Shown here: one piece after another, positions 11,153 to 30,282 of the stretch
Position numbering within the stretch: position 1 is the stretch's first letter
Layout: every line of letters begins with the position of its first letter
Origin: a virus
IMG/VR virus record: IMGVR_UViG_3300010885_040662
Location: 1 to 35,464 of that record
Direction: 5' to 3' (one strand)
Length of the DNA stretch: 35,464 nucleotides
The notes under the pieces: generated by a model
Database searches by the model: none
What the model saw: the letters and a program-made list of their open reading frames with translations, nothing else
Told to the model about the DNA's origin: nothing
Program-made: the position numbers and the translations under genes

Positions 11153-12085
11153 CTAGAAAGCCTCCTCTAATGAAGCATCTGTCAAGGAGACAATCTGACA
11201 GGTGCATTCAAACTCTGCGCAAACGAAGCAGACGTAGCAGAAACTGCACTCGTCTTCGCCTTCGATAATCATCTGACCGCAGTCACCGCACTTCCAGCCG
11301 ATATTGAAGCCGTCTTCGTCGATGATTTCAACGGGTACTGGCAGATCTGCGTATGATTCGTCCCAAAAGGTGTCCTCTCGGGGCGTGCCATACATCTGCT
11401 TTTCCCATGCGGTGGCTTCTTTGTCGCTGTCGTAGTAATAGCCATCACCCCAAGCAGGGCTAGCGCCGTAATGTGTTGCTAGTTGCGTGTTGGTGGCTAC
11501 TGGCTTGTAGAAGCAGGAACTATTGGAGTACCAGTGATCGCCAATCCACTCGCCACGCTTCTCACCAATGATGGAGAGAGGCTCTAAGCCATGCTGAGCA
11601 GTGAGCAGAACCAGCTTGTTGCTGGAACCAGTCCAGGTCTCAAGAATGCCTGCGAGGTTAGGGTCTTGGAAGCCCCGAGCACCGCCCATGCGTGGCAAAA
11701 TGTCGTTGGCAAAGAAGCCTGAGTCTGATCGTGGGTCATCCTTGGCCATGTTTACAGACAAGATGCCGTTATGAAACAACACCGAGTGCTCGTCTTTGCC
11801 GACTTGCCATGGGTGGCAGTTATCAACTGTGGACTTGCCATGCGTTGTGATGCGGGCGTGGTACGCACTGGCTAGTACGTAGTCGCCATGCAACTCAAGC
11901 ATGTCTAGGTATGAATCAATGGCATCAGTTGCGTTCATTGAGCGGTACGTGATGAGTTCACGGTCTTTGTCAGTCAGGCCAATCACGATACCCCAGCCGA
12001 AGCCGTCCGGATTTGACCAACTGCCAGTTTCCAACTCGCTGTACGATGGGGCTGATGATCCTCTAGTTGCTATGATTACACACAT
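11153..12085 (-). CDS. Class II glutamine amidotransferase (GAT-II, Ntn hydrolase) with C-terminal Cys-rich zinc motif
   Basis: The 310-residue protein starts MCVIIA, so after Met removal C2 becomes the N-terminal nucleophile. Further GAT-II signatures are SNPDGFGWGI (24-33), YHARITTHG (75-83), CHPW (90-93) and FHNG (104-107), which form the glutaminase pocket that releases ammonia from glutamine. The C-terminus has eight cysteines from C266 to C296 (CGDC, CSFC, CFVC, CTC), likely two zinc sites. It overlaps the amidoligase stop by ten bases, so the two are co-translated. GAT-II proteins paired with amidoligases have been proposed from genome context to make or recycle amide or isopeptide modifications. 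The target is unknown. Confidence 0.87.
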   Translation of the reverse strand: MCVIIATRGSSAPSYSELETGSWSNPDGFGWGIVIGLTDKDRELITYRSMNATDAIDSYLDMLELHGDYVLASAYHARITTHGKSTVDNCHPWQVGKDEHSVLFHNGILSVNMAKDDPRSDSGFFANDILPRMGGARGFQDPNLAGILETWTGSSNKLVLLTAQHGLEPLSIIGEKRGEWIGDHWYSNSSCFYKPVATNTQLATHYGASPAWGDGYYYDSDKEATAWEKQMYGTPREDTFWDESYADLPVPVEIIDEDGFNIGWKCGDCGQMIIEGEDECSFCYVCFVCAEFECTCQIVSLTDASLEEAF

Positions 12086-13395
12086 TCTTTGTCTCCTTTT
12101 GCGACGTTGTCGTAGCGATAGTTATCTTGGATGGTTCTTCCGACCTTGAAACGATTGCCCTCAAAGATGTATGAGGCATTCGGATAGGTGGTCTTGTTTT
12201 CGATGACCCACTCTTTGATGCTGTCCCACGATGATGCACCGAGGACGATGTCGCGAGTGGTCATTGTGGCTGTATACTGAGTAAGTGCATGCACCAACTC
12301 GATAGCGCCCAGTACTCTGGCACCAGCAAGCGACGAGCGGAACGTACGAACCTCAACAGTTGCTGAGTTCCAGAAGTTCACTGCGTCCGAGTGGCTACCA
12401 CTGCGTTGGCCGATAGCTTTCTTGACTGCACCGCCCTGACGGAGGCCGTCAAAGGATGCGTAGCTAGCGTCACGTCCGCAGAACTCGACCATGCCAGGCT
12501 GATTGCTGGCGATGATGTAAGCGAAGCGACCAATGTGGCCCTGCGAGTTGAACGCTCGCCTATCCATGTGGACGTGCAAGCCAGTGGAACTACGCTCCCA
12601 AGCTTTGCCACCCATGCTGGATATCGTGGCGAGTGCGTCGGCGAGTTGGTCACCGAGTGCCTGCCATGATGCCAGTGTGCGTGGGTGACTAACAAGTTCG
12701 ACACCCCAACTCAATGAGCCGTCGTGCTTGGCATAGTATGCCTCTGTGCCGCCGTTCATTGTGTCTAAGAAGCGTTCTGCAATCTCGCTTGGCGAGTATG
12801 CGCCAGTTGCTTCGACTTCTAACTCAACGCCGAAGTATGGTTCAGCAACTGTGAACGCTGGTGCACCCGACTTTGCGTCGCTAGGGACAGAGAAGAAGAT
12901 TGCACGAGGCTTGTAGCTGTAGTCGTGGATTACGCCATCGTCTTCTTCTTGGTCTTGGCAGTTGTTGCAGTACTCGCCATCGCCGTCGTCGTGCGAAAGC
13001 ACAGTGTCGCAACTGTTGCACCAGTAATAACTATCACTGAAGCAACCACCGCATAGTATTTCGTTGTGTACGTTATGCATTCCGGCCCAGTTGTCGTCGA
13101 AGATCACATCACACGCTTCGCATGTGTAGGTATTGTGGTCACAACCCTCGCAGTATCTGCTGAACTCGATCGAGTATGGTCCATGATGTGCTTGCACCAT
13201 TTCATCTTCTGGGAAGTGCTCGTCGCAACCTGTGCATGAGTACAGCAATGCTTCTGCTGAATCCATAGGCTTCATGTCACGCAATGGACCACGTCGTAAG
13301 CTGAAGACCTCCCATTGGTTCATTTCCCATGGGTCGTCGTTTGGCACAACAGTTGTTATGTGCAGTAAGCCTGCACCTCGCATTTCAATAGGCAT
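12076..13395 (-). CDS. Amidoligase-like enzyme (COOH-NH2 ligase fold) with three N-terminal zinc ribbons
   Basis: The 439-residue protein has six CxxC pairs between residues 54 and 146 (C54/57, 82/85, 92/95, 115/118, 126/129, 143/146), enough for three ribbons. An acidic linker follows, then an amidoligase-like domain: YFGVELEVE (187-193), KHDGSLSWGVELVSHP (223-238), TGLHVHMDRR (271-280) and TVEVRTFRSSL (346-356). These conserved E, D, H and R residues match the glutamine-synthetase-related amidoligase family (PF12224-like). It would join a carboxylate to an amine using ATP; the ribbons may dock a protein or nucleic acid. GAGGGAGTAG precedes ATG 13395 and a 22-bp repeat lies 35 bases upstream. 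The downstream gene is a GAT-II partner. Confidence 0.85.
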   Translation of the reverse strand: MPIEMRGAGLLHITTVVPNDDPWEMNQWEVFSLRRGPLRDMKPMDSAEALLYSCTGCDEHFPEDEMVQAHHGPYSIEFSRYCEGCDHNTYTCEACDVIFDDNWAGMHNVHNEILCGGCFSDSYYWCNSCDTVLSHDDGDGEYCNNCQDQEEDDGVIHDYSYKPRAIFFSVPSDAKSGAPAFTVAEPYFGVELEVEATGAYSPSEIAERFLDTMNGGTEAYYAKHDGSLSWGVELVSHPRTLASWQALGDQLADALATISSMGGKAWERSSTGLHVHMDRRAFNSQGHIGRFAYIIASNQPGMVEFCGRDASYASFDGLRQGGAVKKAIGQRSGSHSDAVNFWNSATVEVRTFRSSLAGARVLGAIELVHALTQYTATMTTRDIVLGASSWDSIKEWVIENKTTYPNASYIFEGNRFKVGRTIQDNYRYDNVAKGDKECV

Positions 13396-15514: not shown

Positions 15515-15578
15515 GGGAACTTCGAGGAAATAAATAAACCCGTACTTGTTAGGGTTTATTTATTTCATTGAAGTTCCC
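15515..15578. promoter_or_regulatory. Long stem-loop D with the shared loop motif
   Basis: A perfect 15-bp inner stem (GAAATAAATAAACCC at 15527-15541 with its complement at 15552-15566) closes the loop GTACTTGTTA; a 9-bp outer stem (GGGAACTTC 15515-15523 with GAAGTTCCC 15570-15578) follows across a 3-base internal loop. The ACTTGTT loop is shared with stem-loops A and C although the stem is AT-rich and unrelated. Confidence 0.7.
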
Positions 15579-15681: not shown

Positions 15682-15711
15682 AAAGGTGGGGTGCGTGAGC
15701 ACCCCACCTTT
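15682..15711 (-). terminator. Strong intrinsic terminator for the leftward gene at 15730-16404
   Basis: A perfect 13-bp stem (AAAGGTGGGGTGC / GCACCCCACCTTT) with a 4-base loop is followed, on the leftward transcript, by a run of eight U (A run 15677-15684). It lies 19 bases after the stop of the leftward gene. This is the clearest terminator in the window. Confidence 0.88.
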
Positions 15712-15729: not shown

Positions 15730-16404
15730 CTAACCTTGGCAGAACCCGCAGTTGGACCGATGGCTCAACTCAGCCGCTTGCCGCGCCAACTTGGTTGGAG
15801 CCTTCACGAAATGCGGCCCGAAAACTGGCACCACCTTCCTCGAGCGGATCCTCCCGTTCCGAGGCCTCCTCGGTTCCGTGTAGTCGCTGGTCTCGTGCGC
15901 CTGCTCCGCGCCCATCTCGTGGATTGCGTCCAGCGCCAAGTTGACGAGAGCCGACTGGAGAGTGTGAGTCACCTGCACCCTGTAAACTCCCCACGTGCTC
16001 CACTCCTCGACTTCAAACGACTCCAGGAGGTTCTCATCCAAACCCAACGTGACCGCCTCATTCCAGTCTCTCCGGGTGACTGCGACTGGCCACGGTGACG
16101 AGTGCCACCAGACCATGATCACCGAGGGATGGAGGGCCTCGTTCATCTCTGGGATCCTGGACTTCAAGCCAATCTTGCCACCTTCCTGCTCTGGAACGAA
16201 GGAGACCGATGAATCATCGTATCCATCAACCAACGTAGGAACCCGACCATGGTACTCATCAATCGTGAGTTCACCTGCACGAATGCTATCACTGGTCTTG
16301 TCGTACTCAGCTCGGTCGATGTAGCCTCGGCCCTGATCACTTTCACTTATTAGCGACCACCAAACGCTTCCGTCTAGCAGATCTACACTGTTATCGTACG
16401 GCAT
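15730..16404 (-). CDS. Hypothetical protein, first leftward early gene, 224 aa
   Basis: Start taken at ATG 16404, seven bases after GAAAGGGAGA; ATG 16410 is too close to that site. The product begins MPYDNSVDLLDGSVWWSLISES and contains RVPTLVDGYDDSSVSFVPEQEGG, VIMVWWHSSPWPVAVTRRDW and WSTWGVYRVQVTHTLQSALVNLALDAIHEMG, an alpha/beta pattern rich in Trp. The end is basic (RRPRNGRIRSRKV) with a final CGFC. No family recognised. It is the first leftward gene next to the control region, is monocistronic with its own strong terminator, and is therefore probably expressed very early. A host-directed function is plausible but unproven. Confidence 0.72.
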   Translation of the reverse strand: MPYDNSVDLLDGSVWWSLISESDQGRGYIDRAEYDKTSDSIRAGELTIDEYHGRVPTLVDGYDDSSVSFVPEQEGGKIGLKSRIPEMNEALHPSVIMVWWHSSPWPVAVTRRDWNEAVTLGLDENLLESFEVEEWSTWGVYRVQVTHTLQSALVNLALDAIHEMGAEQAHETSDYTEPRRPRNGRIRSRKVVPVFGPHFVKAPTKLARQAAELSHRSNCGFCQG

Positions 16405-16531
16405 TTTCATTCTCCCTTTCAACCGCGCGACGTTCACACGGTCCCAAACCCGAGACAGGCGCCAGTCACCTTCTTGCCTCGCGTGAGGAGTTAGCGATGG
16501 CTATCGGAACAAGGAGAAAAGTTATAGGCAC

Positions 16532-16559
16532 CCGTAAAGCCCGCTCGCGGGGTTTACGG
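16532..16559. repeat. Stem-loop 1 of the pre-terL array
   Basis: CCGTAAAGCCCGC (16532-16544) pairs with GCGGGGTTTACGG (16547-16559) over 12 of 13 positions, forming a tight hairpin. First of the array. Confidence 0.6.
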
Positions 16560-16604
16560 TTCAGTAGTGCCGAGACTTTTGCTGCTTGTGGCGCGCGGGC
16601 AAGA

Positions 16605-16655
16605 TGTAATAGAGTGTTGCCCCGCTTCGGTTGGCGGGGCTTACAGTCTATTACA
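16605..16655. repeat. Stem-loop 2 with GCCCCGC/GCGGGGC core
   Basis: TGTAATAGA (16605-16613) pairs with TCTATTACA (16647-16655) outside, and GCCCCGC (16619-16625) with GCGGGGC (16634-16640) inside, loop TTCGGTTG. The inner 22 bases recur exactly at 16675-16696. Confidence 0.7.
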
Positions 16656-16660
16656 CCAAT

Positions 16661-16729
16661 CCGTACGGCATGTAGCCCCGCTTCGGTTGGCGGGGCGTAC
16701 AGACCGTAGGATTTGACAAGCCTGTACGG
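16661..16729. repeat. Stem-loop 3, second copy of the GC hairpin
   Basis: The inner hairpin 16675-16696 is identical to that in stem-loop 2, again with TTCGGTTG as loop. TGTA/GTACA extends it and CCGTAC (16661-16666) can pair with GTACGG (16724-16729). Different outer stems around the same inner hairpin suggest a reused module. Confidence 0.65.
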
Positions 16730-16777
16730 TGTTGGGACTGTGTGTGGAAAACACAGCGTATTCAAAGAACTTAAGCG

Positions 16778-16829
16778 CCTTGGCCAGCGTATTTCCAGCG
16801 TATTTCTGGAAATGCGCTAGGGGCCAAGG
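16778..16829. repeat. Stem-loop 4, 21-bp stem
   Basis: CCTTGGCC (16778-16785), AGCGT and ATTTCCAG pair with CTGGAAAT (16806-16813), GCGCT and GGCCAAGG (16822-16829), with one G-U and a 3-base bulge; loop CGTATTT. One of the longest stems in the window. Confidence 0.75.
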
Positions 16830-16914
16830 TAAGAGAGGAGCAGCATGTAAGCGGAGGTGCGCCGCAGGCAAGGGATGGTATTAGAGGCGCGAAGCGGCAT
16901 ATATGTATTGGCTT

Positions 16915-16955
16915 CGGAGCGGAGCGACATCGCATTGACTACGGAGCGGAGCGAC
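16915..16955. repeat. Direct repeat CGGAGCGGAGCGAC, two copies
   Basis: The 14-base unit occurs at 16915-16928 and 16942-16955, 27 bases apart. Each is followed by (C)ATCG. Tandem iteron-like spacing inside the structured region; only two copies, so iteron function is a guess. Confidence 0.55.
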
Positions 16956-16961
16956 CCATCG

Positions 16962-17000
16962 TCTCGTATCGCGGGGCGCACAGCCCCGTTCGATACGAGA
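16962..17000. repeat. Stem-loop 5, 16-bp stem
   Basis: TCTCGTATCG (16962-16971) pairs perfectly with CGATACGAGA (16991-17000); CGGGGC (16972-16977) with GCCCCG (16983-16988); loop GCACA and a 2-base TT bulge. No run of T follows, so not a typical terminator. Confidence 0.78.
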
Positions 17001-17027
17001 GAACAAGAGCGTGTAACACGTTGCTAT

Positions 17028-17070
17028 CAGTACCGCTCGGTGCTGGATGGGTGCAGTTCCCATCCTGCAC
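17028..17070. repeat. Adjacent and mutually exclusive hairpins
   Basis: CAGTACCG/CGGTGCTG forms a hairpin at 17028-17045. GGATGGG (17045-17051) with CCCATCC (17059-17065) forms the next, while GTGCAG (17051-17056) with CTGCAC (17065-17070) forms an alternative that excludes it. A two-state RNA switch is possible. Confidence 0.5.
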
Positions 17071-17092
17071 TGCGAGGGGGAGAAGTAGTTAT

Positions 17093-17191
17093 GCCAGTAT
17101 CACCTCATTCATCCTGCTTACTGGCTCATTGTCACGCGATAGCACCAAGTACTGTGCGAACACGCGCAGTACAATCACGCAACGCGTGATT
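17093..17191. repeat. Three closing hairpins of the array
   Basis: GCCAGTA/TACTGGC at 17093-17125 (7 bp), GTACTGTGCG/CGCGCAGTAC at 17149-17172 (9 of 10 pairs, loop AACA), and AATCACGC/GCGTGATT at 17173-17191 (8 bp, loop AAC). The last two abut directly. Confidence 0.65.
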
Positions 17192-17263
17192 CTGTAGTGT
17201 GTGACCGTAACATCAAGAGGTTGGCTGACCGGGGGTCTGCCCAGGGGGGGTATGTAGTTATTA

Positions 17264-17488
17264 GTGAGTATCACTGACACACCGATAGTTCATTCCGGGT
17301 TCGAAATGAGGTTCAGCTGCAACGTCAAGTTTCTTCTGGTCAGTGCTAGGCTTCTATTAAAGAGAGAAGGCAAGTGCTTAAGAGGTCAAGTTCGATTACC
17401 CCATCAGGAGATACAGGAAAAGTTTAAATGTCTGTACTGTCTTTCCGAGTATAGGGCGAGTCTAGTACACACTTTGTTCCACCAGTAG
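17264..17488 (+). CDS. Doubtful small ORF with C2H2-like end, 74 aa
   Basis: A GTG at 17264 opens 74 codons ending at TAG. Most of it has no coding feel, but the C-terminus KCLYCLSEYRASLVHTLFH has the spacing C-x2-C-x9-H-x3-H of a minimal zinc finger, and this phage carries many zinc microproteins. AGTTATTAGTGAG offers no good ribosome site. It lies in the less-structured part of the pre-terL gap. Probably spurious; listed because the motif is suggestive. Confidence 0.2.
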   Translation: MSITDTPIVHSGFEMRFSCNVKFLLVSARLLLKREGKCLRGQVRLPHQEIQEKFKCLYCLSEYRASLVHTLFHQ

Positions 17489-17611: not shown

Positions 17612-19504
17612 GTGGCTGTTCTCCCTGCACAGAAGGCTAAGTACTTCAAACTTCGTAATGAGGGCTTCTCTATGGCCAAAGCCGCTACTGCCGCAGGGTT
17701 TTCTGTATCCACTGCCAAGCGTCTTGAGCAAACCATAGGGGATTTGGTTACTAGCGAGCGGGCTAGAGCTATTACTCAGGATGAACTCCCCGGCCCTAAG
17801 AAATATGATGACCTGTGCCCTGAAGCCAAGAGGGCTTTAGAGGACTTTGGGTACTTCCAGCAAAGGTATTTTGGGCGCATCGCCACCCCTTGGCAGGTTG
17901 AGGCCGCCAACCGGATGATTGAGTGGCTAGATACTCCTGATAAAGAATACGCCGTAGTTAACTGCCCCCCCGGTGCTGGTAAGACTACCCTATTCTCTCA
18001 CGATATCCCCGCTTGGGTCACCTGTAGGAACCGCGAAGTCCGAGGCCTCCTTGGCAGCGCCACAATGAGCCTCGCCAAGAAGAACCTGGGCCGATTAAAG
18101 CGATCTTTTGAGCGCACTATCCCTGAACAAGGCGAGGATATAGCTGTAGCCCGTGGACTAGCAATGGACGCGGAGTCTACTTTGAGCCTTGACTTTGGAC
18201 GGTTTAAGCCCATTGACCGGGAACTCTGGTCCTCCGAAGCTTTTGTAGTTATGCAGATGGAAGGACAGGGTGCCATTTCTGAAAAGGAGCCCACTTGGTC
18301 TGCCTACGGGATGGACACCGGATTCCTTGGATCGCGGCTAGATTTCGTTATTTGGGACGACCTAGTGGATCCACGCAAGATCAGGACTTCAGAGCAGCAG
18401 GAGGCTCTACAGGACTTCTGGCAGGACGTTGGAGAGACACGCCTAGAGCCGGGGGGCCTTTTAATCCTTCAGGGGCAGCGCATCAGTAGCGACGACCTTT
18501 ACCGCTTCGCTTTAGACATGATTAAACCCATGGACGATGAAGATGAAGATGAAGAGGTCCCTGTGGAAAAAATTTCTTTAGAGGCTCCTCAGGCAGATAC
18601 CCGTAAGGATAAGAAATACCACCACATTATTTTTAAAGCTCATTATGAGGAGAACTGTGACGGAACCCAGCACAAGAAAAGCGCAAAACCGTATCCTGAA
18701 GGGTGTCTCCTTGATACCCGTCGCCTTAGCTGGAGCGACATTCAGACACTCAAAGCAAACCGTGGAGAGCGGTTTGAAGTCATTTACCAGCAGCGTGACA
18801 TTGACCCGGGCGAAGTCTTGGTGCCTAATGCGTGGATTTTTGGACACGATGAATTCCCAGGCTGCATTGATAAAAACCGTGATCGGCTTGAAATTCCCGA
18901 CGGAATCAGCGCAGCGGACTGCCTGTCAGTCGCCACCGCCGACCCCAGCCCCACCATGTTCTGGTCAGTGCAGTGGTGGCTGTATCACCCCGCCTCAGAA
19001 CAACGATTCCTAATTGACCTATCCCGCAGGAAGATGGATGCCCCCGATTTCTTGGACTATGACTATAACTCCGGAGGATTTACTGGGCTAATGGAAGACT
19101 GGCAAAATGCTTCTGAAATCCTTGGTTTTCCCATTACTACTTGGATCGTAGAAGCCAACGCCGCGGCTCGGTTCCTGCTACAATATGATCACGTTCGACG
19201 TTGGCGTGCATTGCATGGAGTAGACATTCTCCCCCATACAACCCATAGAAATAAGTCAGATAAAGATTTTGGCGTAGAAACCATCGCGCCCCACTATCGG
19301 TTTGGTAGAATAAGGCTACCGGGCAAAGGTGAAGGTAAGGCCGTCTCTATGCGTTTGATTGACGAAGTTACCCGATACCCTCATGGCCGTACAGATGACT
19401 GTGTTATGGCTCATTGGTTTTTTGAGTGGCAGTTGCCTAATATTTATAATCCAACGCCAGTCGGAAGGTCTGCCTGGCGTCCATCTTGGGTGGGGGCACG
19501 TTGA
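17612..19504 (+). CDS. terL: Terminase large subunit with N-terminal helix-turn-helix
   Basis: The 630-residue protein starts at GTG 17612. Residues 1-45 (AQKAKYFKLRNEGFSMAKAATAAGFSVSTAKRLEQ) form a helix-turn-helix like that of small terminases. The ATPase follows: Walker A CPPGAGKTT (118-126), adenine and arginine region LLGSATMSLAKKNLGRLKRSF, Walker B DFVIWDDL (about 244-251) and coupling motif LILQGQRISSDDLYRF. The nuclease domain has ATADPSPTMFWSV near 440, IVEANAAARFL and the final acidic TDDCVMAHWFF near 596-606. It pumps DNA into the head and cuts it. No separate TerS gene is visible, so the N-terminal HTH may recognise the packaging site. It opens the late operon and overlaps the portal gene by four bases. 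Confidence 0.94.
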   Translation: MAVLPAQKAKYFKLRNEGFSMAKAATAAGFSVSTAKRLEQTIGDLVTSERARAITQDELPGPKKYDDLCPEAKRALEDFGYFQQRYFGRIATPWQVEAANRMIEWLDTPDKEYAVVNCPPGAGKTTLFSHDIPAWVTCRNREVRGLLGSATMSLAKKNLGRLKRSFERTIPEQGEDIAVARGLAMDAESTLSLDFGRFKPIDRELWSSEAFVVMQMEGQGAISEKEPTWSAYGMDTGFLGSRLDFVIWDDLVDPRKIRTSEQQEALQDFWQDVGETRLEPGGLLILQGQRISSDDLYRFALDMIKPMDDEDEDEEVPVEKISLEAPQADTRKDKKYHHIIFKAHYEENCDGTQHKKSAKPYPEGCLLDTRRLSWSDIQTLKANRGERFEVIYQQRDIDPGEVLVPNAWIFGHDEFPGCIDKNRDRLEIPDGISAADCLSVATADPSPTMFWSVQWWLYHPASEQRFLIDLSRRKMDAPDFLDYDYNSGGFTGLMEDWQNASEILGFPITTWIVEANAAARFLLQYDHVRRWRALHGVDILPHTTHRNKSDKDFGVETIAPHYRFGRIRLPGKGEGKAVSMRLIDEVTRYPHGRTDDCVMAHWFFEWQLPNIYNPTPVGRSAWRPSWVGAR

Positions 19505-21993: not shown

Positions 21994-22241
21994 TGGGTGA
22001 AACTCCAGAGATGTGCGAAGCTTTAGATCAGGTGTTGCAATTATCTACACGCGCTCGCCGTGATCCTAACTGGGCGCTTGCTCTTGCGCACGCGTCTCAT
22101 ACTCTGGGTGCAACTCCGCATGATGTTGTTACTACTATGGATTTTTTAGACATGCACAAACAAATGGCTGAATTTTCGCAAGACAGATTACTATCTCACG
22201 CTTCACACCCTTACCGTAACGCAGAGGAACCGAATGTCTAA
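21993..22241 (+). CDS. Small helical hypothetical protein, 82 aa
   Basis: ATG 21993 overlaps the previous stop by one base (TAATG). The product MGETPEMCEALDQVLQLSTRARRDPNWALALAHASHTLGATPHDVVTTMDFLDMHKQMAEFSQDRLLSHASHP is helical and His-rich at its end. No motif recognised. It ends eight bases inside the start of the giant gene, so the genes are coupled. Probably a virion or assembly protein of the head. Confidence 0.68.
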   Translation: MGETPEMCEALDQVLQLSTRARRDPNWALALAHASHTLGATPHDVVTTMDFLDMHKQMAEFSQDRLLSHASHPYRNAEEPNV

Positions 22242-25200
22242 CACGGCTACACCAGCTTCTACTACTCCACCAACTGCCAAGCCACCACAGCCAAATGCAT
22301 GGGGTGATGCAGTATCTCTTGATGCATGGGGTCAGCCTGTTCAACAACAGCAAACTCAAACGGTTAATTTACAAAAAGGTCAGCAGACCGAAAAAATCTA
22401 TCCCCATTCGGCTGGACATGATGCAGGTAGCCCTTGGAATTTGTTGTCTGGACTTGGCCATGGATTGGTTAATGGCGTAGAAGGCATTGGTCATTCTTTA
22501 TGGCACAATCCCTTTACTGAAGGCAGCATATTCCGTAGCACATGGGATATGGGATATGGCACTGTTGCACATAGTCTGCGCACGGTTTCAGATATTGCTG
22601 ATGGCCATTGGAAAACTGCAGGTCAAGATTTTATGCAGGCAATACCTTTGTACATGCCAATTAATCATATTGCACGAGCCTTTACTCAAACAATGCATGA
22701 CAAGGGTTTGTTTTATGCCCTTGGCCAAGTGGGTGGTTCTCTTATCCCTGCTATTGCGGCAGGAGTTTTAACGGGTGGCGCTGGAGCTGAAGCTGGTATT
22801 GAAGCTGTAGCCGCTGAAGAAGCTACAACTGTCGGAGCCACTGAAGCTGGAGCTGCTGAAGCTGCTGCGGAAACTGCCGCTATTCCTAAAACTGGAATGC
22901 TTGGCACTAGAGGTATTAGAGATGTTGCGGCTAAATTTAAAGATGCACAAGGTTTTCAAAAAGCTGGTGTAGCAATTCGTGCGCCTTTCCGTCCGCTGAG
23001 TTTTGCTATGAGACAGCAAATGAAAATAATGAGCAACCCAAGTAATCTTGCTTTTCAAGTTGCTGCTCCTTTAACTTTTGATAAATCCACTTGGGATAAA
23101 ACAGCTGATGCAGCAGGATGGATTAACCCATACACGGGTAAAGCTTCTCAACAAAGTCTTGGTGGATTAATTCCTGGTATCCAAAACAGTAAATTTGAAA
23201 CCAAAGCAGTTGATTTTCTTGTTGGGTTAGTTTCACCTTTGCCGCTTGCTACGGCTGGTGGAATTGTTGGAGATGCTCGATCAGCATATGGTTTGTCAGG
23301 CAAATTGGGTGGCGATGGATTGCGCATCCCTCTTACCCAAAAAAGAATTGGTTTTGCTGGTACGGCTCTGACCGATCCTGAAAAAGTTGATCAGATGTAT
23401 CGTCAATACCCACGCATTCGTCGCACTTTTCAACAAATGACAACTATGACCGCAACACAGATTAAAGCCGAAAGCCCAGAATTGTCTGGTTTAGCTCTTG
23501 AACTAGGTGCTGCAAAAACCGTAGATGAAGTTAAGCAAGTTTTTAAGAGTGCTGTTCAAGATAACAATCGCGCCATTGACATGATGTCTGGCCAAATACC
23601 TTCTTTTACTGTTTTTGCACCTTTTCGGGTTATGCTCCGAGGCGCAGCTTTAGGCAAAGAATTAGAGCGTGAACGTGTATTGGTTGGCATTCGTGATGCT
23701 GAAGCCGAAGCAATGGGAATGCGATACATGGATCCCGCTCATCGCGAAGGACTTGTTGATGATGCTGGCATGCCCAATGTTGATATGCGTTCTCAAGCAG
23801 GCCAAGACTTTAATGAAATTCAAGATCGCAATATTGAAACAACTGCGCTAAGAACTAAAGACTGGCAAATTCGTGTTTTGCGTAAAATTTCTCGTACTTT
23901 TACGCGCACTTCAACAGCTTTCGTAAAAGACGAAGGTCAATTTTCTCGTAATCATATTCAAATTGGCGACCCTATGAGTGTTGACTCAATAGCCAACCTA
24001 ATGCGAGGTTCTAAAGCTTCTGAGCTTGAAGTAGAACAAATGACGGAATCGCTTCTTTCTAATCCTGATCCCGCGCACTGGATCAACACTATTAATGGGG
24101 CTTTAACCCAAACGGTCCTAGATCAAATTTTGCGCACCGTTGATTACAGCATTGCTCCTCAAGTAGTTATGGCAATGAAGCCAAAACTTATAGAAGGTTT
24201 TAATCGGATCCTTAATCCAGGCAACATCCATGCAGGAGAAAACGGAGTTTTTGTAGTTCATGCAAACGCTGATAAAGCAGGAAAGGATTCTCAATTAGCT
24301 TTTAGTGATGGAACACCTGCGGCTAAAGCTGCAGCAACTGATTCTGATGAAGTGTCTGGCATTCGTTTGCCAGAAGTTCGTTTGCTTAACCGCATGATTA
24401 AACAGACTTCTAAAGAAATGCGTTGGGCTATTAGGGATGCTAAGGATCCCGGTAGCGAACTGGAAATTTTGACTAGTATGCCGGGTATGCTTTTACAGGG
24501 CAGCCAAATGCAAACAGACCTTGTTGCTCTTCGAACTCGGGTCTTTCAAGATTTTAAGAAAAAAGTCAGCAATTTTGCTGAAAACGCAAAAGAAAATTAC
24601 GAACTGGCTAAGCAATCCAAATCAGCTCTTATTGAAGACCACACGGTAAATCGTGGTGTTAGTAAATTAATTCACAAACTTCCTGCTGATCATCCTTTGG
24701 TTCAAGAATATCATGAATATAAACGAAAAGAAGCAGCGTTTACTTCAAATGCTCGTCGTCTTGCAGAACTTGAAGAATTAGAACGTTTGCAAGGTGCTGA
24801 AAAAGGCTCGTTGCGATTTATTGATAGATCCCGTGCGCGCATTGAAGCTGCTGGCAAAGCTGCTGAAGATGCGGTAAAGAAATCCCACAATGACGCACCT
24901 TGGTCTGACGAATCATTTCCTGATGAAATAGCTGGCAACATTTATGTAGCTGGTGAAGAAGCTAGAGAACTTGAACACAACAAAATTTTTGGTGAAGCTT
25001 ACCCTCACGAATCCAAAAAAGTTACATCTGAGTCTGCTAAAAATTGGGCTGCTGAAATAGATGGGAAAAACGCTCGCCAAAAACATTTGTACAGATTGGA
25101 AAGCATTAAAAAGCGCATTAAGGATGCTGGCGAAAAAGCAGAAAATGCAGAACGTGATCGACAAGGTCTTGGTGCAGAAACAGACAGCAGTTTGGATCAC

Positions 25201-28200
25201 GCTGATGCTTTGCATAGTATTCAAGAAGCAGGAATAGCTGCTAGAGAAGCAATGCACACTCGGTTATTTAAAAAAGAAAACCGAGAAACATTTAAACTTC
25301 AGCATGATAGTCCAGATGATTTGGAAAATATTTTTGGACAGTTTGATCGTGCTGCAGAAGAAAGTGCAAATGCTGTACAGGCTGCAGCTGAAAAATCAAC
25401 ACGCAAGCGTTTTGATTACGCTAATCAAGCAATAGACATTCGTGATGGTAAAATCCGTGTTGTAGGTGATGCAGCAGAAAAACGCGCAAAGAAAATGGTA
25501 TTTCAATACCATGGAAAAGTTTTGCGTGATCAAATTAATAGCGCACTTGATGAAGTGCATCAACAAGAAGAAACAGTTGCATCTCAAGAAATAAAAATTG
25601 CTGAGGCTGCGTTACATCATTGGGACAGGCTTAACAAAACATTTAAAGAAATGACTTACCGTTTAGAGTCAGAAGGCAAAACTATTAATGAAGTTTTGCA
25701 TGAATTTTTGCAAAGTCATGAATACAGAGATTGCGTACATTTGGTTTCAAAACAAAATGAAATTGTAAAAAGTTTTGCTAGCCAAAATGTTTCTAAAATG
25801 GCAAGTTTGGAAGAATTCATTGCCGAGCAAAGCAAGCCAGTGAGTAATGAAGAAATTGCTCAAATAGAACAATCTCAGAGGAATCAGGAACTTGCTATGG
25901 CCCTGGGTAAGATTCGAGCTAGCAAACAATTCATGCGTCATTTGGATAACATGGTGCACGAGATGTTTAGCCCCGAAACGTTTGAAGCATACGGCGATAA
26001 ATTTGCTCACGTAGACTGGACATTAGAAAACGTTCAAACACACGAGCTTATTAGTTTGCTTAAAGAACATGGTGAACTTGATGCTGCACGCAATGAAGCG
26101 CGTAGAGACATTGATCAAGCTACTGAAAATGGAAGATTCCGAGCTGAACGACGTGCACAACGCAACTCTTTGTCTAAGCTTGCTCGATTTGTCAGTACAA
26201 AAGCCACTCCAGAAGAACAAGATGCCATCTTAGTCAAGTTGGGAAGGCAGTATGGAGTTGACGTTCGTTACGCTACTGGCAAGCAAGTTGGAGCAGATTT
26301 GCTTGATGAAATCATTAACAACAAACTGCTTAAACCATTAGCTCTTTCTACTTTTGGATGGGCTGAACGTGTTTCATTATCAGAGCTTTTTCTTAATGCT
26401 GCTCGTGTTGGGCCAGCAAACATTCTTAGATCGTTTTCGGATGCACACGCAGCTAAGCGTGCTTGGAAATTAGATCAAGGTGAAATGGGTCATTTGCATG
26501 CAGCTGTTACATCTGTTTTGTTGGGTTTCCACAATGGTGGATTTCGTTCTCATGACCGTCAACTTCTTTGGGAAGATGCACTTGATCTTATTTTTGCCAA
26601 TGAAGGCCACATTGCGCACCCAGGAGTATCCGCTATACATGGCCTTTTAAGTGATTCAGCAGATAGCCAGTATCATCAAGCTGCTTCTGCAGAACAAAGG
26701 CCAGGTGAACCCGGTGGCATTGGTGGTGGAATAACCACTAACGGTTTTACCGGCATGGATGCATCTAACAAAAGGTGGGCAACAGAACTGGCACATCGCA
26801 TTATGCGCAAAAGCAATTCGCTTATTGCTCCTAAAGTTGCCAAAATTTTAAGTGACAACTGGGACAAAATTATTCAAGACCTTTCTGAAGAAGGTGTTGA
26901 AAATACTTTGCGATATACTATTGAGCCTTTAGTAGAAGCTGAAATTCGTAAGTTGCCTAAAGCTGAACTTGCGCGTTATGATCGTTCACGGTTTGTAAGT
27001 ATGGGCGCTAGACCTGGTGCTGACCCAATTCAAGACTGGGCACGAGTAGCTACTTCGTCTATTTGGCATACCATTGCTCGTCCTTTTGAAGCTTTCGCTC
27101 CAGATCAAAAAGCCTTTGCTAAATCATGGGCTGAAGAATTTCATCAGGATGCAAATATTAAAAATCTTATTAAGGGTTTTGGTAGCTATGACCCCCACTC
27201 TGGATTAAGAGGTGGACTTGGGGTAGAAGAACATTTAAGGTCAGCTAAAGAGGGAGCGTTTGATGTTAAACATCCTACGGAAGATACTCCAGAAAAAAAC
27301 ACCTTTTATTTTCCGCACAAGTTTTTGCTTGATGCCATTAACAACAAGTCTTACCTAGATGAAACTATTCTTAAGGGTCCAGGTTACTTTGGTGATTACG
27401 GCGTTGGCCGTAAGCGGTGGATTCCATATGCACCAACTAACTTGCCAGCAAGGGAAACAGTTGCTTTTGACGCAAACAAAAAGTCTTTGCAACGAGCAGC
27501 AGAAATTGGTCACCGTAGATTTTTCGGGCCTTTAGTTAATTACCTTTCTCGTGACCCAATTTTTCTGCACGAATACCATCGCGAAATGGGTATCTTGCGT
27601 TCTGGTGGCAAAATTGCAGGCGTAGGTGCAGACACTTCAACAATAGCTGCAAATCATTTTAAAGACGACCCTAATCACAGGGTATCTGTTTTTAATACTG
27701 GCACACACGTAAACCAACAACTTGCTGTTGAAGACCTTGGTTATGAGTTAGACGACAGCATTCAAAAAATTAAGGATGGGGATTTAACAACTCATTTTGA
27801 TCAATACAGGCTAGAAGACCACATTGAAAAAATGCAAAAAGCTTTGTCGCTTGCAGAAAAAACCACTGGTCCTGGCAAATTGCTAGTTAGTCGCAATGCA
27901 AATGGTGAGCTTACAGGCATTGCGTATGTACGTCACTATAGCCCTGAAGACAAATTTACATATCGTGAACAAGCTCCAAGAGCATTTAGTTCAAATCGCG
28001 ATGTTCACCATGTCGAAAGTTTGGGGCATTTAGGCGGACCTAGTGGTGCATCTGAATCTTTAATGCACGTAGCTGCACGACAAGCAAATCATACTGGTGC
28101 TGATTTAACTTTTCATCAAGGTGAAGATGCTGCTTCGTTTTTTAATAATTTTCACAACAGGTACATAGGCGATCATGTTGATATGCAAGGCATGCCGGTT

Positions 28201-30282
28201 CATAACATTACACATGCAACTTTGAAAGATTTGTCTAAACCCATTAATTATGATGACCTTGCTTTAATTCCTTCAAAGATGACGCATGAACATGCATCAC
28301 AAATTGCTCAAACACGAGCCATGTATCACATGATTCAGTTTGTGCATAACCCGCAAGAAAAAACTATGTATGATCAGCTTTTCCGCATCATTGCACCGTT
28401 TTACTTTGCTCAGAATCAAGCGTTAAAGCGTGTACTGCGCACCATAGGTGAAAACCCAGGTGCGTTGCCTTACTACATCCAATCGTCACTTGGATTTAAT
28501 GACATGATGACTGCTGCTGCGGACCAAAACGGTTTTGTGCATTGGATGATGCCAGGATCATTTTTGGCTGGTGGTTTAATTGGCAATACTATTTCACAAT
28601 ATTGGGACCTTAAAACGGGGGCTTTGCCTATAGGTCTTAACATGATGCCTACTTCATTGGCAACAGTGGATCCTGCGGCTGAAGTAACTAGTGCACACTC
28701 AATGGGCTTGTGGAGTTTAATTATGCCTAAATTTGGACCCATTGTTGGTATAGCAGATCACATTGTTCGTGGCGCAATCAACATGTACAATCCAAAGTTT
28801 CGAGTCAGCAAACAATCCAAAATGATGGACACGGTTGAAGGTCCGTTTATGCCTTCTGCGCCTTTGTGGATGCAACTTGTTCCGTCAGCGTTTTTGCAAG
28901 GGTTAATTCAAAGCGCAATTGGGTTTGGGGACGTTATTGCAGGTAAGCAACCTTCAGATATTTTGAATGGCAAGTTTGCTCAAGTAGACATTGAAGCACA
29001 AAAAACTATTGTTCACAACCGTTTAGAATATGAATACAACCGTCTTAGAAGCGACCCAGCTTATTGGCAAGGTGTAATGAAAACTGAAGCCACTCCTGGG
29101 GGCCAAGCAGAAATGAAAATGATGAAGTTAGGCAAATTAGCTTTTGCCGAACGTAGTGCTTGGGCAGATGCATCAGATGCAACTGTTAAATGGATGCGAA
29201 CTCATGCAGATGATTTTACAAAAGCTCACACTGCTGCTGCTGCTGGGTTGTTTTTCTTGAAATCTATTGTTGGTTGGCTTACTCCTACCAGCGAATCTCT
29301 TGCTCATTATGGAGTGGACTGGAATCAAGTGTATTTGGGATATCAAAAGAAATATGGTACAGATCAACTTGCTGATTTCTTTTTGCCTTTTCAAAAGTTT
29401 TGTCAAGATCATCCGGGTGAATTACCCTATGTAACAAGAACCAGCACAACGCCTCAAACAATGGCATTTATGCCTTCAGCTACATATCCATCGCTTAGCT
29501 CTATTGAGCCTTGGATTGACAAAAATGTTGGTATTGTATTGGCTAATCCAGGACCTGCTAGATATCTTATTGACTCTCGTTTAACTAACCGCAACGATCC
29601 CAACAATGCGTACTCATCACACATGGGACAAGTTTTGGGAGCTTTAAAACTAAAGTCAAGGTTTGGACCGCAAGATTTTACTGAACAAATGATGATCAGT
29701 CTTGGTGACGGTGCACGAGACATGTTCCTTCAGCCTCAACTGGATTACATGAAAGCAAACAACTTTTCTAAAACTGACATTTGGACACAAGAATATAGAT
29801 GGCTAAAATCATACGGTAATGCTAACCCTGCTTTTATAGAAAGCTATGGGGCAACTACGATTGACAACAATGCTGATCGGGTCATTAACGACATACCCAA
29901 CATGCTTAACAGGCCAGAACTAAAACAAGCTTTTGACAGTGGAACCAATGCTTACAACACAAGTGGATCTTTGTCATCATCTCTGATGCATACTGTTGAT
30001 GGGTTTGAAGCTCTTGGAAAGAGTATTATGGGTAATAGCGCATTGCTTGAATCCCCACATGAAATTTCTGTAAATGGTATGGGCATAACTATGGGTTATT
30101 TGTACAAAGCTTGGCAGGATTATCAAAAATTTGTTATGAGTAGTCCTAATCAAGCTTCAGCTGCACGTAAACAATGGCAAGCAATGATAGACCTAATGGT
30201 TATTAAAACTGCCACAGATCCTAACAACACAGCTTCTTCTCCGTATTTCAACTTGCTCATCCTATTTAAGACTGCGAAGTAA
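22234..30282 (+). CDS. Giant virion-associated protein, 2682 aa
   Basis: The longest gene of the window. The N-terminus is Pro/Gln/Thr-rich and disordered (to about 50), then a Gly-rich hydrophobic stretch (YALGQVGGSLIPAIAAGVLTGGAGAEAG, about 160-190) with an Ala/Glu-rich tail. Residues about 770-1360 are strongly charged and helical or coiled-coil. Segments at about 1726-1740 (GRKRWIPYAPTNLP) and 2045-2095 (YDQLFRIIAPFYFAQNQALKRVLRTIGENPGALPYYIQ) resemble the large polyvalent-protein-associated domains (LPD38-like) of phage and plasmid giant proteins. The rest lacks motifs I can name. Placement between portal and capsid genes argues for an internal, ejected protein rather than a tape measure. 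Base composition looks AT-richer than the capsid gene. vRNA-polymerase motifs were looked for and not found. Confidence 0.8.
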   Translation: MSNTATPASTTPPTAKPPQPNAWGDAVSLDAWGQPVQQQQTQTVNLQKGQQTEKIYPHSAGHDAGSPWNLLSGLGHGLVNGVEGIGHSLWHNPFTEGSIFRSTWDMGYGTVAHSLRTVSDIADGHWKTAGQDFMQAIPLYMPINHIARAFTQTMHDKGLFYALGQVGGSLIPAIAAGVLTGGAGAEAGIEAVAAEEATTVGATEAGAAEAAAETAAIPKTGMLGTRGIRDVAAKFKDAQGFQKAGVAIRAPFRPLSFAMRQQMKIMSNPSNLAFQVAAPLTFDKSTWDKTADAAGWINPYTGKASQQSLGGLIPGIQNSKFETKAVDFLVGLVSPLPLATAGGIVGDARSAYGLSGKLGGDGLRIPLTQKRIGFAGTALTDPEKVDQMYRQYPRIRRTFQQMTTMTATQIKAESPELSGLALELGAAKTVDEVKQVFKSAVQDNNRAIDMMSGQIPSFTVFAPFRVMLRGAALGKELERERVLVGIRDAEAEAMGMRYMDPAHREGLVDDAGMPNVDMRSQAGQDFNEIQDRNIETTALRTKDWQIRVLRKISRTFTRTSTAFVKDEGQFSRNHIQIGDPMSVDSIANLMRGSKASELEVEQMTESLLSNPDPAHWINTINGALTQTVLDQILRTVDYSIAPQVVMAMKPKLIEGFNRILNPGNIHAGENGVFVVHANADKAGKDSQLAFSDGTPAAKAAATDSDEVSGIRLPEVRLLNRMIKQTSKEMRWAIRDAKDPGSELEILTSMPGMLLQGSQMQTDLVALRTRVFQDFKKKVSNFAENAKENYELAKQSKSALIEDHTVNRGVSKLIHKLPADHPLVQEYHEYKRKEAAFTSNARRLAELEELERLQGAEKGSLRFIDRSRARIEAAGKAAEDAVKKSHNDAPWSDESFPDEIAGNIYVAGEEARELEHNKIFGEAYPHESKKVTSESAKNWAAEIDGKNARQKHLYRLESIKKRIKDAGEKAENAERDRQGLGAETDSSLDHADALHSIQEAGIAAREAMHTRLFKKENRETFKLQHDSPDDLENIFGQFDRAAEESANAVQAAAEKSTRKRFDYANQAIDIRDGKIRVVGDAAEKRAKKMVFQYHGKVLRDQINSALDEVHQQEETVASQEIKIAEAALHHWDRLNKTFKEMTYRLESEGKTINEVLHEFLQSHEYRDCVHLVSKQNEIVKSFASQNVSKMASLEEFIAEQSKPVSNEEIAQIEQSQRNQELAMALGKIRASKQFMRHLDNMVHEMFSPETFEAYGDKFAHVDWTLENVQTHELISLLKEHGELDAARNEARRDIDQATENGRFRAERRAQRNSLSKLARFVSTKATPEEQDAILVKLGRQYGVDVRYATGKQVGADLLDEIINNKLLKPLALSTFGWAERVSLSELFLNAARVGPANILRSFSDAHAAKRAWKLDQGEMGHLHAAVTSVLLGFHNGGFRSHDRQLLWEDALDLIFANEGHIAHPGVSAIHGLLSDSADSQYHQAASAEQRPGEPGGIGGGITTNGFTGMDASNKRWATELAHRIMRKSNSLIAPKVAKILSDNWDKIIQDLSEEGVENTLRYTIEPLVEAEIRKLPKAELARYDRSRFVSMGARPGADPIQDWARVATSSIWHTIARPFEAFAPDQKAFAKSWAEEFHQDANIKNLIKGFGSYDPHSGLRGGLGVEEHLRSAKEGAFDVKHPTEDTPEKNTFYFPHKFLLDAINNKSYLDETILKGPGYFGDYGVGRKRWIPYAPTNLPARETVAFDANKKSLQRAAEIGHRRFFGPLVNYLSRDPIFLHEYHREMGILRSGGKIAGVGADTSTIAANHFKDDPNHRVSVFNTGTHVNQQLAVEDLGYELDDSIQKIKDGDLTTHFDQYRLEDHIEKMQKALSLAEKTTGPGKLLVSRNANGELTGIAYVRHYSPEDKFTYREQAPRAFSSNRDVHHVESLGHLGGPSGASESLMHVAARQANHTGADLTFHQGEDAASFFNNFHNRYIGDHVDMQGMPVHNITHATLKDLSKPINYDDLALIPSKMTHEHASQIAQTRAMYHMIQFVHNPQEKTMYDQLFRIIAPFYFAQNQALKRVLRTIGENPGALPYYIQSSLGFNDMMTAAADQNGFVHWMMPGSFLAGGLIGNTISQYWDLKTGALPIGLNMMPTSLATVDPAAEVTSAHSMGLWSLIMPKFGPIVGIADHIVRGAINMYNPKFRVSKQSKMMDTVEGPFMPSAPLWMQLVPSAFLQGLIQSAIGFGDVIAGKQPSDILNGKFAQVDIEAQKTIVHNRLEYEYNRLRSDPAYWQGVMKTEATPGGQAEMKMMKLGKLAFAERSAWADASDATVKWMRTHADDFTKAHTAAAAGLFFLKSIVGWLTPTSESLAHYGVDWNQVYLGYQKKYGTDQLADFFLPFQKFCQDHPGELPYVTRTSTTPQTMAFMPSATYPSLSSIEPWIDKNVGIVLANPGPARYLIDSRLTNRNDPNNAYSSHMGQVLGALKLKSRFGPQDFTEQMMISLGDGARDMFLQPQLDYMKANNFSKTDIWTQEYRWLKSYGNANPAFIESYGATTIDNNADRVINDIPNMLNRPELKQAFDSGTNAYNTSGSLSSSLMHTVDGFEALGKSIMGNSALLESPHEISVNGMGITMGYLYKAWQDYQKFVMSSPNQASAARKQWQAMIDLMVIKTATDPNNTASSPYFNLLILFKTAK

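Follow-up and report, generated by a model that had tools for sequence, protein, structure and literature searches.

A hairpin array beside a conserved element in the probable genome-end region of a freshwater podovirus-like phage

The non-coding DNA between the early and late genes of this phage contains an unbroken run of hairpins (16527-17191) and, directly 3' of it, a short element that is conserved in a group of uncultured relatives (17224-17296). The array, a striking structured element, is specific to this lineage and has a putative function. We interpret the region as a whole as the place where this podovirus-like freshwater phage, which probably infects actinobacteria, has its genome ends (the packaging junction) and controls its replication. 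The array would be a lineage-specific structured cis element within it, and we give this interpretation an even chance of being right. A packaging or terminus role is proposed because the family-conserved element lies beside the array, at the place where the terminal repeat of syntenic cultured phages ends, and because the contig ends of relatives pile up there; position, conservation and contig ends thus speak for the role, though it is unproven. The window analysed is the whole of an IMG/VR virus record, a linear sequence of 35,464 bases, and the label 'freshwater' is an assumption based on the usual origin of such IMG data sets.

The rightward late operon opens with terL, the gene for the terminase large subunit (17612..19504, + strand; phrog_38, 5e-50), which is followed by the genes for the portal, a 2682-aa protein of unknown kind (22234-30282, + strand) and the major capsid protein. 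The 2682-aa protein has no match in Pfam, PHROG or PDB, and large proteins of weak similarity are present in the relatives. On the left side the genes run leftward and include those for SSB, an ERF recombinase and a Cas4-like nuclease, and the junction between these early genes and terL is non-coding, as in the packaging regions of the cluster BF type. The array is flanked on its left by an orphan gene (15730..16437, - strand) with a probable ATG near 16412 behind AAAGGGAGA, for which a homologue search returned no relatives, and which is closed by an intrinsic-terminator-like hairpin found by terminator search (15682..15711). Another strong hairpin, of 16 pairs, lies near this stem at 15525-15568, in the gap that separates two leftward genes (15304 and 15730). 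Further left, a gene pair (11153-13395, - strand), one member of which is weakly amidoligase-like, also occurs at other positions in the related loci L027, L036 and L055, and is possibly a mobile module. TerL and the capsid protein are distantly related to those of Streptomyces podoviruses of the subfamily Beephvirinae. An actinobacterial host is probable, and agrees with the LexA-like boxes of the relatives, CGAACNNNNGTTC, which we take to match actinobacterial LexA.

The array comprises about 12 stem-loops in succession, mostly two-tiered and with hardly any spacers. Folding gives a three-tier H1 (16527..16571), built of GGCAC/GTGCC, CCGTAAA/TTTACGG and CCCG/CGGG, followed by H2 (16605..16655), whose outer stem TGTAATAGA/TCTATTACA encloses a 22-base inner hairpin, and by H3 (16658..16713), in which the same inner hairpin sits within a different self-complementary outer stem, AATCC.TACGG/CCGTAGGATT. 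The two copies of the inner hairpin, GCCCCGCTTCGGTTGGCGGGGC (16619..16640 and 16675..16696), are exact 22-mers, as the original prediction had it; between H2 and H3 the two outer-stem arms have changed together, and the inner hairpin has stayed the same. The longest stem, of 9 + 13 pairs, is in H5 (16778..16829). Further along lie H7 (16962..17000), where TCTCGTATCG/CGATACGAGA encloses CGGGGC/GCCCCG, H9 (17033..17077), H10 (17093-17125), H11 (17149-17172) and H12 (17173-17191). The 14-base direct repeat described earlier, CGGAGCGGAGCGAC, is present on the + strand at 16915..16928 and 16942..16955, and no believable gene was found in the array region, again in line with that description.

The density of hairpins, which the original prediction had also pointed out, is far beyond chance: the 0.68 kb contain six stems of at least 9 Watson-Crick pairs, where shuffled sequences have 0.38 on average and never more than 2. 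The remaining 34.8 kb of the record hold 34 such stems, and lone strong hairpins occur near 7.7, 9.7, 13.7, 14.5, 14.9 and 15.5 kb, with no such run elsewhere in the record. The array folds as a whole with a z of -7.9 on either strand, and locally, with the pairing span limited to 70 nt, with a z of -14.7, whereas the equivalent stretches of 14 relatives and two cultured phages give local values of +1.3 to -4.6 at the same span. By a related measure applied to both, the array scores -7.1, and a phage tRNA cassette between -0.2 and -2.5.

This very strong folding also speaks for the array being, as had been suggested, the gene of a new structured RNA, in this case a large and ornate non-coding one (about 670 nt, similar to GOLLD or ROOL) that lies by chance beside a packaging site. 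The unbroken hairpins with possible domain-closing pairs, the constant inner hairpin of H2 and H3 with outer-stem arms changed in pairs, and the documented precedent of large phage RNAs of the ornate kind (PMC12286853) point the same way. Against it, the Rfam search that had been proposed gave no relevant match at curated or permissive thresholds, and the array does not match the Rfam covariance models of GOLLD and ROOL. The strand-neutral stems contain 112 Watson-Crick pairs, 3 GT, 4 AC and 6 others, so that the wobbles show no strand preference; their rarity and lack of strand bias mildly favour DNA palindromes or a young structure, the numbers being small. Long-range pairing beyond the local hairpins brings a modest gain: of 60 permutations per strand, 6 did as well on the + strand and 1 on the - strand. 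The supposed RNA is not bounded by a clear promoter or terminator, and array homologues that would allow covariation analysis were not found in the database searches. We regard such an RNA gene as possible, well short of an even chance. That the array encodes an undescribed large ornate RNA, made by a freshwater actinophage and perhaps connected with packaging or with the processing of the genome ends, is put forward as a doubtful claim; the connection is suggested because the array abuts the proposed terminase site.

Several known types of structured or repeated element were considered for the array and rejected. An array of tRNA or tmRNA genes was ruled out since no tRNA genes were found, and a cluster of intrinsic terminators since no GC stem followed by a T-tract occurs within 16527-17191. 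Hairpin promoters of the N4 virion-RNA-polymerase type were considered in view of the 2682-aa protein, which lacks matches in the protein databases named above; the stems of the array are far longer than N4 promoters, which counts against this. Integron attC sites and group II introns, which were judged on sequence and on the outcome of the Rfam search, are unsupported.

Searches of phages, plasmids, IMG/VR and GTDB yielded no homologue of the array. Their sole match, a coincidence of 22-24 bp in a Paenarthrobacter contig, falls within an apparently coding stretch. The closest relative (TerL 82% identical) lacks the array, and when the loci of the relatives were compared by local folding none had it at the corresponding place. 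Absence from all relatives compared would fit a passive array, one in which mobile palindromes or errors of replication had built up hairpin-prone or palindromic sequence in hypervariable non-coding DNA, as would the near-duplicate H2/H3 units, the 14-base repeat and the near-perfect stems, which suggest youth. However, twelve distinct well-formed hairpins end to end would be costly to keep in a compact phage genome, and the coupled changes in the H2 and H3 arms suggest selection on pairing, which makes a passive origin decidedly unlikely in our view.

The original prediction held that related phages lacking structure at this place would speak against it. That is what we found for the array, but not for the element adjacent to it, and although the array does occupy the interval that had been singled out, the part that says most about function is found just beyond it. 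The element, about 70 bp long (TGACCGGGnGTGTGCC-GAGGnGGG...TATCAC...CTCATT, + strand), begins 33 bases past the last hairpin and is proposed to be the genome terminus or terminase site. Its parts follow in the order TGACCGGGnGTGTGCC, GAGG, a G run, a spacer, TATCAC and then, at a fixed distance, CTCATT. Collecting relatives by TerL alignment gave about 25 related contigs, and the element could be aligned with fixed spacing in 20 related loci upstream of terL, down to a TerL identity of about 51% (L029) and at distances to terL of 270-2980 bp, while the rest of the relatives' intergenic DNA is unalignable to that of this phage. A near-exact search of IMG/VR with the consensus returned five contigs, each with this TerL; a TerL search of the GTDB genomes for prophage relatives returned none. 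Two further loci, L012 and L013, in whose fetched DNA no family TerL was detectable, contain GGGGGTCTGCC-AGGGGGGG(G)T, which resembles the window motif and may do so by chance.

The surroundings of the element in the relatives hold features of their own. A stretch like GGTCCGGCCTAGTGGACATAG.AGGCTGTTACCC..CAACGGGGATCA is common to L020, L023, L027 and L031 between the element and terL; it looks conserved and is possibly structured, and ARAGORN found no tRNA in it. In L021, L023 and L005, AACGAGCGAAGCGAGGCG, which includes the mini-hairpin sequence GCGAAGC, lies about 140-220 bp downstream of the element and was found nowhere else in these loci. Roughly 1.8 kb upstream of the element, L021 also carries a Type II hammerhead ribozyme (L021:2738-2799, - strand; 48.8 bits, above the Rfam gathering score). 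The parS-like sequences TGTTCCACGTGGAACA or TGTTCCACGTGAAACA are present in L002, L003 and L007.

Perfect DnaA boxes number 15 in the 43 kb around the element in the relatives and 0 in the other 215 kb, and LexA-like matches 29 against 3, the latter count being somewhat inflated by overlapping matches, and some of the loci overlapping or being near-duplicates. Boxes of these kinds (DnaA, LexA-like palindromes) cluster near the element in L017, L004, L007, L023, L024, L034, L035 and L038. In the nearest relative, L007, three LexA-like boxes and a short repeat lie where the array would be. The window itself has neither a DnaA box (TTATCCACA) nor a LexA-like box. The site of the array is thus rich in cis elements across the group, and the array itself is confined to this phage. 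A replication origin, another of the functions first suggested, therefore has indirect backing from the clustered DnaA boxes of the relatives and none from boxes in this phage. The cumulative GC skew that had been proposed as a check does reach its minimum here, but divergent transcription alone would give it.

The LexA-like palindromes at this place in the relatives, together with the position of the array exactly between the divergent units, could also indicate transcription control, in which the array would supply operators and weak terminators that keep the early (leftward) and late (rightward) units insulated from each other. The stems of the array are not followed by T-tracts, their sequences all differ save one pair, so that they are not repeated operators, and their density is far above what such a role would need; we therefore think this explanation unlikely.

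Contig ends give a further indication of the role of the region. In seven relatives a contig ends 59-312 bp upstream of the element, against about 0.8 expected, for a 320-bp interval that was picked after inspection of the data and at a place where strain variation could also break assemblies. One of them, the 41.9-kb contig L025, starts at a point 59 bp upstream of the element and has non-coding DNA at its other end; no terminal repetition was found in it, nor any overlap of the two ends. Such breaks, and the fact that hairpins and repeats assemble poorly, might be taken to mean that the array is an assembly artefact or the contig a chimera, the other outcome that the original prediction had named as counting against it. 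This was not borne out and we consider it very improbable, since both flanks have counterparts on the single contig L007, on the left the Cas4-like nuclease (60%), ERF (57%) and a further leftward gene and on the right TerL (80-82%) and portal (85%), and since the element joins the array without a break. A chimera was rejected on the same grounds.

Inside the array, about 168 bp upstream of the element, lies a partial copy of the element's post-cut half, AGGGGGAGAAGTAGTTATGCCAGTATCACCTCATT (GTAGTTAT..GTATCACCTCATT; 17075..17113, + strand). None of 1000 shuffles gave a copy as good, nor did any other 900-bp stretch of the genome. Speculatively, this copy is a candidate for the left end of a terminal repeat, which would then span about 17085-17253 and leave most of the array just outside; we offer this as a lead only, as the relatives do not generally have an upstream duplication of the element.

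In the packaging and replication-control interpretation that we prefer, late genes would run rightward from terL and early genes leftward, with the ends of the virion DNA between them. The terminase would recognise the element on concatemeric DNA and cut near GGGGGGGTATG, and the genome would be left with short direct terminal repeats like those of the syntenic cluster BF phages. The array would probably act as DNA, its hairpins being extruded or single-stranded while ends are formed or replication starts, and would take the position of the DnaA boxes and LexA-like palindromes of the relatives. The earlier suggestion of a packaging region next to terL thus gains support for the region, from the element, the end of the BF repeat and the contig ends, but these arguments, like those for an origin, concern the neighbourhood of the array and not the array itself, for which any function is putative. 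The element provides a sequence tag by which the probable genome ends could be recognised throughout a group of uncultured freshwater phages. If the array is functional, then either a phage can swap the usual protein-binding repeats of its genome end for a chain of hairpins, or this one carries a new large RNA.

Among known RNA systems, GOLLD and ROOL are comparable in their heavy structure and their location in phage non-coding DNA. They measure about 580-800 nt, a range that includes the array, and GOLLD comes partly from lakes. They differ in that the array has no Rfam match and no tRNA nearby, and is known from sequence alone. The pRNA of phi29 is also a structured non-coding sequence near a genome end, like the array, but it is about 174 nt long and belongs to a protein-primed phage, and again the array has no Rfam counterpart.

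The uncultured relatives, which include L007 (IMGVR 3300009151_000197), L004 (IMGVR 3300027734_000010) and about 20 more, share TerL (42-82% identical), the portal and the giant protein; most have the element and none the hairpin array, many carrying DnaA and LexA-like boxes instead. Among cultured phages the comparison is with the Beephvirinae, placed in the literature as actinobacteriophage cluster BF (PMC9753666, PMC13097060). FlowerPower and its kin are reported to have 253-bp direct terminal repeats (PMC9753666), and a further podovirus of the cluster 265-bp terminal repeats (PMC13097060). Comparing the ends of four deposited genomes, Immanuel3, FlowerPower, Stella and Dennebes, we found exact terminal repeats of 275, 253, 263 and 254 bp, which start with GTCCC at the left and at the right end in CCGGGG(G)TTGTTAA...GGGGG(G)AGTG, followed by AGTCCC, about 350-400 bp before terL; in a fifth phage, Abafar, the deposited repeat ends elsewhere. 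In FlowerPower terL is followed by the genes for endolysin, portal, a large protein and capsid and then by leftward early genes that include a Cas4-family nuclease, and there is a tRNA cassette, which this phage lacks. The BF phages have no hairpin array at their corresponding stretch, their TerL and major capsid protein are weakly related to those of this phage (TerL only about 22% identical), and a profile of the element found no match at the BF termini. They are nevertheless syntenic with it (terL, portal, giant protein, major capsid protein, leftward early genes), with divergent early and late units and a non-coding end region. The sequence ACCGGGGGTCTGCCCAGGGGGGGTATG of this phage lies at the same distance from terL (about 380 bp), and in the same layout, as the G-rich BF end motif, a resemblance of position and architecture rather than a demonstrated homology.
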